A stretch of 64,000 nt of DNA from Halobacteriales archaeon QS_8_69_26 (GTDB lineage: Archaea > Halobacteriota > Halobacteria > Halobacteriales > SW-7-71-33): the NCBI GenBank assembly GCA_003023195.1, contig PXRX01000008.1, positions 186,569 to 250,568 of the forward strand, in the 5' to 3' direction. Positions within the stretch are counted from its first letter, which is position 1. Every line of letters starts with the position of its first letter. The translations under genes and the position numbers were made by a program. The notes under the pieces were generated by a model. It was not told where the DNA came from. It did not search any database and worked only from the letters and a program-made list of their open reading frames with translations. Positions 33,303 through 64,000 of the stretch are shown here, in pieces.

Positions 33303-33734
33303 GCCTCCGACACCTCTCTCTCACCTCGTCGTTCCGGCGACCCGATACTGCCCCCCAGTCGGTAGCCCGGTATCCGATACGCGTCATGGTTATATCACCT
33401 GCTGTTCGCTTAATTTATGGCATCGATAGAGAGTGCCATCAAAGTTCCCCTTCGGCGTCCCGCGGGTCTCGCCATCGCGGTCCCCCGGATCCGGATTCGT
33501 CGCGTGGCGGGGAGTGCGCCCTGGACGGCCGGGTTCGGGACCCACGCCTCGCCGACGGATGGAACTGGACGCGACCGGTTCGAACCGGACCAGGTCGGAT
33601 CCGGGTGACCCACCGGCACCCGTGGGCCGGCGTTCTCGTCGAGTTACAGTAAACTTACTGTAATTGTGCCTCTCACCGCCTGGGTGCTCCCACGATTGTC
33701 GGGGTTTAACTGGCGCGTCGGCGTACCTCCCGAC
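33303..33734. other. Intergenic region with divergent promoters and palindrome
   Basis: No convincing gene; the small ORFs here have no protein-like pattern. A+T-rich sequence near 33388-33420 (GGTTATATCACC, CTTAATTTATGG) may hold the promoter of the minus-strand HEAT protein. The 20-bp palindrome at 33644-33663 lies 71 bases before the next plus-strand gene. Confidence 0.5.
33644..33663. promoter_or_regulatory. 20-bp palindrome TTACAGTAA-AC-TTACTGTAA (copy 1)
   Basis: Perfect inverted repeat with 9-base arms and a 2-base centre. The same element recurs at 43562 and, with two changes, at 63598. The form suits a dimeric regulator's operator. It lies upstream of the 33735 gene. Confidence 0.6.
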
Positions 33735-43561: not shown

Positions 43562-43581
43562 TTACAGTAAAATTACTGTAA
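43562..43581. promoter_or_regulatory. 20-bp palindrome TTACAGTAA-AA-TTACTGTAA (copy 2)
   Basis: Perfect 9-base arms identical to copy 1. It lies 71 bases upstream of the minus-strand lipoprotein start (43491) and 116 upstream of endonuclease IV (43697), between two divergent genes. Confidence 0.6.
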
Positions 43582-53082: not shown

Positions 53083-53429
53083 GGACCGGGATACACGGGA
53101 GGGACCCAAAGGGGTTGCGTCTACCGGCGGACGCCGGGACGCGGTCTCCCCGGTCCGATCCCCGCCAGGCAACGCCCGTGGAGCGATCCCGGCGGATCCG
53201 GTTGCCGGAGCGATCCCGACTGGATCCGGCCGGAGCGGTCCCGACTGGATCCGGCCGGAGCGATCCCGACTGGATCCGGCCGGAGATCCCGACTGGATCC
53301 GGTTGCCGGAGCGATCCCGACTGGATCCGGCCGGAGCGATCCCGACTGGATCCGGCCGGAGCGATCCCGACTGGATCCGGCCGGAGCGATCCCGACGGAC
53401 CCAAGCCCCCGGAGCCGAAGGATCGGCCG
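53083..53429. other. Divergent intergenic region filled with tandem repeats
   Basis: No gene is visible. Most of it is the 25-bp repeat array at 53180-53399; the rest is the short upstream sequence of map. No clear TATA box is left for the plus-strand nuclease gene, whose promoter must lie within or overlap the repeats. Confidence 0.7.
53180..53399. repeat. Tandem repeat, unit about 25 bp, about 8.5 copies
   Basis: Unit GGAGCGATCCCGACTGGATC + CGGCC, with minor variants (GGTTGCC in place of GGCC twice; one shortened copy GGAGATCCCGAC). The array lies directly before the beta-CASP nuclease start codon at 53430. High identity between copies suggests recent expansion. Confidence 0.95.
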
Positions 53430-59417: not shown

Positions 59418-59592
59418 GCTACCGGAGCTCCGCCCTGCCACCCTGCTCATTACTGGAGCTTCGGTCCGCCACCCTGCTCATTACTGGAGCTCCGGCCCGC
59501 CACCCTGCTCATTACTGGAGCTCCGGCCCGCCACCCTGCTCATTACTGGAGCTCCGGCCCGCCACCCTGCTCACTACCGGAGCTCCGGCCCC
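59418..59592. repeat. Tandem repeat, 31-bp unit, about 5.5 copies
   Basis: Unit GCTCATTACTGGAGCTCCGG + CCCGCCACCCT, nearly identical between copies, ending about 35 bases before the TATA box of the SRP RNA gene. The small ORFs in the track here simply translate the repeat. Confidence 0.95.
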
Positions 59593-63597: not shown

Positions 63598-63617
63598 TTA
63601 CGGTAAAGTTACTGTAG
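63598..63617. promoter_or_regulatory. 20-bp palindrome, diverged copy 3
   Basis: TTACGGTAA-AG-TTACTGTAG differs from copies 1 and 2 at two arm positions. It lies about 102 bases upstream of the moxR start and 118 before tRNA-Ser. Confidence 0.5.
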
Positions 63618-63734: not shown

Positions 63735-63819
63735 GCCGAGGTAGCCTAGCCCGGCCAAGGCGGTTGCCTCGAGAGCAACTGTCCGCAAGGACTCAGGAGT
63801 TCAAATCTCCTCCTCGGCG
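63735..63819 (+). tRNA. tRNA-Ser (CGA)
   Basis: 85 bases. Acceptor GCCGAGG pairs with CCTCGGC, discriminator G. The anticodon arm GTTGC-CTCGAGA-GCAAC gives anticodon CGA (codon UCG). The long variable arm GTCC-GCAA-GGAC marks a class II tRNA. The T arm is AGGAG-TTCAAAT-CTCCT. CCA is not encoded. A short T run (CTTTTCCC) follows as terminator. Downstream copies of its 3' end suggest use as an integration site. Confidence 0.96.
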
Positions 63820-63872
63820 CTTTTCCCGTCACTACCCGGCGAGCGGCGCGTAGCGTCGCGGGCCATCGGACG

Positions 63873-63977
63873 GGAAAAGCGCCGTCGAGATTTGAACCAG
63901 AGAGAGCGCAGTCTCGCGAGCACCGCGAGCGAGGAAGCGATCGACCGTGGTTCGAATCTCCTCCTCGGCGCTTCTCC
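63873..63977. repeat. Copies of the tRNA-Ser 3' end (possible attachment-site remnants)
   Basis: At 63873-63898 an inverted partial copy reads, on the minus strand, GGTTCAAATCTC-GA-CGGCGCTTTTCC. At 63949-63977 a direct copy reads GGTTCGAATCTCCTCCTCGG followed by CGCTTCTCC, differing from the tRNA end at a few positions. No complete second tRNA is present. Confidence 0.75.
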
Positions 63978-64000
63978 GCACCAGACCCGTGAGCGCCGCG

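Follow-up and report, generated by a model that had tools for sequence, protein, structure and literature searches.

Gene-free, structured cassettes carrying copies of the tRNA 3′ end lie behind tRNA genes in haloarchaea

The tRNA-Ser(CGA) locus and its downstream copies

The window, i.e. the whole stretch of haloarchaeal DNA that was analysed (64,000 nucleotides), contains a tRNA-Ser(CGA) gene near its right-hand end. ARAGORN called this gene at 63735–63820 on the plus strand, and the discriminator base is at 63819. The gene and the features downstream of it are as follows.

63735–63819, plus strand: tRNA-Ser(CGA) gene (ARAGORN; orthologue in 93 of 98 relatives)
63799–63819, plus strand: repeated block, the final 21 nt of the tRNA (positions 53–73)
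63815–63884, plus strand: hairpin A, a 16-bp perfect stem of 63815–63830 with 63869–63884 (fold z, inverted-repeat search)
63886–63897, minus strand: T−, the tRNA's T-loop plus a portion of its 3′ T-stem, copied in inverted orientation (11/12)
63888–63959, plus strand: unit scored by covariance model R1, the T−/hairpin B/T+ core (E = 1.1e-4 genome-wide; locus outside the training set)
about 63898–63949, plus strand: hairpin B proper
63950–63970, plus strand: T+, direct copy of tRNA positions 53–73, 20/21 (sequence reading, genome search, boundary analysis)
63971–64000, plus strand: beginning of the next trailer/hairpin A copy, which runs past the window edge

The direct copy T+ (GTTCGAATCTCCTCCTCGGCG) was compared with the end of its own tRNA (63799–63819) and agreed at 20 of 21 positions; beyond it, a weak similarity runs on into the trailer, which accounts for the longer copy (63949–63977) described in an earlier, sequence-only reading of this DNA. 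T− (GAGATTTGAAC) matched the reverse complement of GTTCAAATCTCC at 11 of 12 positions. The inverted match exceeds the length given in that reading, because CGGCGCTTTTCCCGTC (63815–63830), comprising the acceptor end and trailer, also pairs perfectly with GACGGGAAAAGCGCCG (63869–63884). The stem of hairpin A begins on the acceptor 3′ strand and the trailer CTTTTC of the tRNA. The copies sit in two consecutive hairpins, the first with the 16-bp stem and the second with a 13-bp stem formed by T− and T+. The folding z-score of the right-hand segment was −4.6 relative to 200 shuffles, and in the minimum-energy fold of the whole region T− was paired with the tRNA's own T arm.

To the right of the window, an assembly gap of 102 N is followed by a repeat of T−, hairpin B and T+ (L005:1103–1185). 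Here the same 113-nt stretch was found at 92% identity, bearing a third direct copy of the tRNA end, and R1 scored this second local unit (C8:250671–250742) with a genome-wide E value of 7.9e-5, again outside the training set. A search of the right-hand segment against the whole genome found the tRNA 3′ end at E = 5.6e-5 and the second 113-nt copy past the gap at E = 1.8e-41, indicating that the copies at this locus are not due to chance. The inverted T-arm copy and the direct 3′-end copy pointed out in the sequence-only reading were borne out by the sequence, the genome search, the fold and R1. The same reading had suggested that a mobile island may lie to the right, to be recognised by an integrase and a further copy of the tRNA end. 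The further copy was found past the gap, whereas the 20-kb locus contained no integrase and no additional copy. The next 18 kb carry housekeeping genes, among them genes for an M32 peptidase, ThiF, glycosyltransferases, GatD and a Cdc48-like ATPase, and on the basis of this gene content and the repeat search we rejected an island on this side.

Assembly N gaps were seen inside tRNA-tail arrays both here (L005:1001–1102) and in the downstream flank of L071, so draft haloarchaeal genomes probably under-count such arrays. A palindromic motif, TTAC(A/G)GTAA(A/G)NTTACTGTA, occurred three times in the window (33644–33663, 43562–43581 and 63598–63617; none expected from shuffles), with similar copies near several tRNAs (L056, L068, L073, L078 and L108), and is possibly a candidate transcription-factor operator. 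Tandem arrays unrelated to the cassettes described below were observed at 53180–53399 (25-bp unit, 8.6 copies) and 59420–59591 (31-bp unit, 5.5 copies).

Anatomy, tRNA specificity and structure of the cassettes

The copies are parts of a non-coding, palindromic cassette of about 100–220 bp, sometimes present as two or more in tandem, in the order tRNA 3′ end (positions 53–73), trailer/hairpin A, T− (12 nt of T-loop and T-stem sequence in inverted orientation), hairpin B and T+. In 114 units, T+ extended exactly from G53, the first base of GTTC, to the discriminator base 73; per-position identity to the own tRNA was 0.81–0.98 within this block and fell to background at −1 and +21. The acceptor part of T+ was 91.8% identical to the own tRNA, compared with 48.2% when the tRNAs were permuted (permuted maximum, 54%). 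T−, with a length of about 12 nt, was likewise specific to its own tRNA (88.9% vs 83.0% permuted; permuted maximum, 84.6%) and, at positions where the tRNA and T+ differ, sided with the tRNA 13:1. The idea that T− is the whole acceptor end in inverted form was considered; it holds at a few loci (L066, L196 and the window), not generally.

Hairpin B has a core, AGTCGCAGCC..loop..GGACCGTCT, with a T·T mismatch and a CAG/AC internal loop, which is kept across families. Compensatory change was observed at six pairs in an alignment of 17 units, and double changes at 17 of 22 and 15 of 22 pairs in two larger alignments. In the latter, covariation was 0.284 vs 0.114 and 0.329 vs 0.137, exceeding all of 500 shuffles and all slid controls; both alignments were fitted to R1 and are biased towards its structure, although the difference is wide. 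Covariation was present in the T−/T+ helix, the inner stem and the terminal stem. R1 itself was trained without the Ser-CGA locus, and its E values are genome-wide. The inner stems contained nine G·U and two A·C combinations; G·U pairs made up 0.8% of pairs in unit stems, and were also infrequent (2–4.6%) in the tRNA stems of the same genomes. Among 4227 Rfam covariance models, only tRNA attained its gathering score.

At the Ser-CGA locus of another genome (G058, L025), a nested inverted-repeat insert, TACTACCGGCTGT..ACAGCCGGCAGTA, lies within the variable loop of hairpin B, which suggests that this loop tolerates insertions. The hairpin B core also occurs by itself, without adjoining tRNA or T-arm copies (L107:1004–1048; L109, minus strand, about 1017–1053; L241–L245, L253, L260, L261 and L263), the flanks often being CGGA..TCCGGTGG. 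These stand-alone cores apparently represent a second repeat family that has the hairpin in common with the cassettes.

Occurrence and change among haloarchaea

A census of this genome built on RF00005 loci comprised 35 tRNA genes. T+ (at least 17/21) was found within 500 nt downstream of 19 of them and upstream of none, and in a cross-control the tails of other tRNAs matched in 42 of 1190 tail/downstream pairs. At the loose threshold of 9/12, 27 of the 35 genes had at least a T− match. Cassettes lay behind tRNAs for Lys, Ile, Gly, Arg, Val, Glu, Met, Ser, Leu and His.

Units were detected by R1 in 82 of 98 haloarchaeal genomes, with up to 34 per genome. In a 295-genome sample of the phylum, all 50 positives belonged to one order, that of the haloarchaeal host, and no units were found in other members. 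Scanning 84,980 prokaryote species for the exact pattern returned 21 matches, all in Halobacteria (hosts include Halomicrococcus, Natrinema, Natronorubrum, Halovivax, Haloferax massiliensis and Salinarchaeum), and 20 of these lay directly behind a tRNA on the same strand. Similarly, 29 of 30 R1 matches examined in five related genomes of one genus adjoined a tRNA. Three matches were on plasmids, and both of those read in detail have a preceding tRNA or tRNA-like gene. On a Natrinema thermotolerans megaplasmid (CP031304.1, L271:1343–1590), a tRNA-Glu-like gene missed by ARAGORN was accompanied by a full unit and a perfect 21-nt T+. A complete unit was also observed in Salinarchaeum laminariae (L104:274–350 of the reverse complement), where neither ARAGORN nor Rfam found the adjoining tRNA; the neighbouring gene is perhaps an intron-containing, decayed or cut-off tRNA. 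A viral origin was considered and rejected: phage records gave no matches to the unit, the strict pattern had none in IMG/VR, and the 36 IMG/VR matches to a relaxed pattern were chance-like on inspection, with neither the structure nor T-arm copies. A literature search that covered mainly open-access papers turned up no earlier account, and the cassettes are apparently an undescribed, haloarchaea-wide family.

At the Ser-CGA locus, T+ copies were present in 29 of 90 genomes with patchy occupancy inside genera, and they matched the own genome's tRNA even where families differ in tail sequence. Comparison of G084 with G068, which belong to the same genus and have near-identical upstream flanks, revealed a clean filled/empty difference of 173 bp with the T+ repeat at its borders, the flank being back in register after the insertion/deletion. 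This pair is compatible with gain or loss, as precise loss through recombination between the 21-bp direct repeats would look identical. In the sister species G022 and G053, the trailer hairpins behind the tRNA and behind T+ were exchanged, which is a sign of recombination inside arrays. At two loci from genomes without a cassette there (L030 and L034), TnpB-like ORFs, recognised by eye in translation, start about 100–150 nt behind tRNA-Ser.

Archaeal integrases have a preference for the 3′ ends of tRNAs, where fragments of the tRNA are left behind (PMC8371274, PMC9897764), in line with the earlier proposal that the copies are independent scars of integrative viruses or plasmids at tRNA-Ser, next to a mobile island. 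We regard this as highly improbable: the next 18 kb contain neither integrase nor island, the same structured unit stands behind most tRNA types and in 82 of 98 genomes, and scars of unrelated elements would not have hairpin B or an inverted T-arm copy in common. What survives of the integration-site idea is the resemblance of T+ to a displaced tRNA 3′ end with a precise T-loop-to-discriminator boundary; independent scars do not. Repeated integration and excision likewise gains from the precise filled/empty difference and from copy numbers that vary among relatives, but not in the form of separate scars. As for the opposite possibility allowed for in that reading, a structure conserved in all relatives, T− and the hairpin between the copies do form a conserved, covarying structure, which accompanies the majority of tRNA types and was seen in the majority of the sampled haloarchaeal families; it is, however, facultative and not universal.

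The position of the units on the tRNA sense strand, directly 3′ of the tRNA, together with the strong covariation and the conserved T·T mismatch and CAG/AC internal loop, would suit an element acting at the RNA level. In a read-through transcript, alternative pairings of T− with the tRNA T arm or with T+, along with hairpins A and B, might then serve in termination, 3′ processing or tRNA-level control, the element being optional and its arrays varying by recombination. The minimum-energy pairing of T− with the tRNA's own T arm and the 13:1 preference of T− for the tRNA over T+ point in the same direction. The ratio of G·U to A·C in the inner stems leans weakly to the sense strand, but discriminates poorly between RNA and DNA because G·U amounts to only 2–4.6% in the tRNA stems of these genomes as well. 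Nevertheless, roughly half of the tRNA genes and entire genomes do without the cassettes, and in close relatives their absence is precise. The cassettes are not needed; the exact 53–73 boundary of T+ has no evident RNA rationale, and the hairpin B core is found away from tRNAs too. On balance, we consider an RNA-level role somewhat unlikely.

The compensatory changes are Watson–Crick swaps with G·U nearly absent (0.8%), a pattern that could also be produced by mutation alone, i.e. by template switching and unequal recombination at highly transcribed, hairpin-prone tRNA ends, with quasi-palindrome correction perfecting the stems and with neither mobility nor function. Tandem arrays, hairpin swaps and assembly gaps within arrays agree with such an origin, and loss is readily explained through repeat recombination. 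It is unlikely in view of the hairpin B core, AGTCGCAGCC..GGACCGTCT, being conserved across families, the repeat boundary being constant at positions 53–73 in 114 units, and the confinement of the cassettes to one order when tRNA genes are universal.

Possible mechanism and comparison with known systems

Mobile DNA in prokaryotes docks at tRNA 3′ ends more often than at most other sites. The reading that we favour, tentatively and as somewhat short of probable, is that the cassettes are non-autonomous and were inserted via T-loop-type site-specific recombination, T+ being the displaced tRNA end. Units would be gained and lost by a crossover in the T-loop: an arriving unit would provide the tRNA with a fresh, intact 3′ end, and the previous end would be displaced and left as T+. 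Entry of a circular molecule (tRNA end, A, T−, B) into the tRNA would generate the observed order and allow tandem growth, and arrays could form by repeated insertion or by unequal exchange between the 21-bp T+ repeats. The folded T−/B/T+ strand would be the recognition site of a recombinase, which must act in trans because the cassettes are without genes. The exact 53–73 block is predicted by a T-loop crossover combined with the need to rebuild the tRNA. That T− follows the tRNA is expected if the tRNA end and T− came in one unit, although simple decay of T+ would also account for it. No recombinase linked to the units was found, and no gene cargo was seen in them. As each unit matches its own tRNA, a classical element would require either numerous lineages, each specific to one tRNA, or retargeting in place.

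Gene-free structured cassettes behind about half of a genome's tRNA genes, across an archaeal class, are seemingly new. If mobile, they would constitute a minimal family of tRNA-targeting elements, comparable with integrons and casposons; were they functional RNA, a new layer would be added to tRNA trailer biology. Either way, they offer an explanation for spurious ORFs, for tRNA 'fragments' and for assembly gaps close to haloarchaeal tRNA genes.

Like tRNA-targeted integrative elements and islands, the cassettes have an intact tRNA at one end, a displaced 3′ fragment at the other, and precise filled and empty sites. As in elements of the T-loop class, the direct repeat begins at the T-loop and extends to the end of the tRNA (exactly 53–73 in 114 units) and relatives provide a precise empty site (G084 vs G068 and G052; change unpolarised), but an integrase is not encoded, the unit being too short and the 18 kb to the right containing none. 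Unlike tRNA-integrated islands, the cassettes measure about 100–220 bp, have neither genes nor integrase, are present at many tRNA types simultaneously and build up tandem arrays; they also contain a T-arm copy in inverted orientation as well as a conserved hairpin. Casposons also target tRNA 3′ ends and duplicate the target sequence, and are large and self-coding; a 21-nt T+ together with an inverted T− is ill-suited to the simple target-site duplication of casposon or Cas1-type integration.

The tyrT repeats of E. coli and Salmonella (RtT RNA) are about 178 bp long, lie downstream of tRNA-Tyr and each start with the last 19 bp of the tRNA. The cassette repeats resemble them in following the tRNA immediately and in having its 3′ end as their first segment. 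The tyrT repeats, however, occupy one enterobacterial locus, and we know of no family-wide conserved hairpin or inverted T-arm copy for them at many tRNAs. Salmonella rtT is a 175-bp VNTR whose copy number differs between strains (PMC2658671). In Methanopyrus kandleri, half of the tRNA genes are followed, after about 10 bp, by a palindrome (PMC5217627); it is likewise fixed behind many tRNA genes, but is short and of fixed sequence, and no copies of tRNA sequence have been reported for it.

PATEs, IS605 elements and REP-like hairpins share with the cassettes a short, palindromic, non-coding and multi-copy nature, although PATEs have no tie to tRNAs. PATEs with near-terminal palindromes are known in haloarchaea (PMC3119063) and the hairpin B core does occur alone, so that hairpins of this kind, mobilised by IS200/IS605-type Y1 transposases and targeting tRNA T-loops, might be proposed. 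PATE/IS605 insertion, however, generates no target duplication (PMC3119063), yet the units come with the T+ duplication. Moreover, the number of Y1 transposase (PF01797) matches did not correlate with the number of units: the unit-rich genomes G089 (34), G037 (29), G025 (25) and G040 (25) had no Y1_Tnp match, and G059 had 10 Y1 matches and no unit. The lack of correlation led us to reject Y1/HUH-type mobilisation (PATE, RAYT), and this origin is very unlikely.

The folded architecture of the units is similar to that of integron attC sites: an imperfect hairpin with paired ends (T−/T+), an unpaired spacer, an inner stem with unpaired bases and a variable terminal loop, in an array beside a fixed site, with covariation supporting all three helices. 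The attC R boxes (RYYYAAC/GTTRRRY) are not present, the unit ends being GATTTGAAC and GTTCAAATC and the fourth base of GTTC being C, not a purine; unlike those of integrons, the unit ends are tRNA T-loop sequence, and there are no gene cassettes. The integron integrase model TIGR02249 had no match over its cut-off in 98 genomes and none at E ≤ 0.001 in the own genome, on which grounds we rejected membership of integrons or CALINs, and the main text of a 2022 survey of archaeal integrons makes no mention of haloarchaea. We put forward only as speculation, and an improbable one, that haloarchaea possess an integron-like, genome-wide cassette system whose fixed site is the tRNA T-loop, with a recombinase capturing and releasing a circular dumbbell (tRNA end, A, T−, B) at tRNA 3′ ends via the folded T−/B/T+. 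The combination of an exact 53–73 repeat, an inverted T-arm copy, a conserved hairpin and genome-wide occupancy sets the cassettes apart, as far as we know, from all of these precedents.
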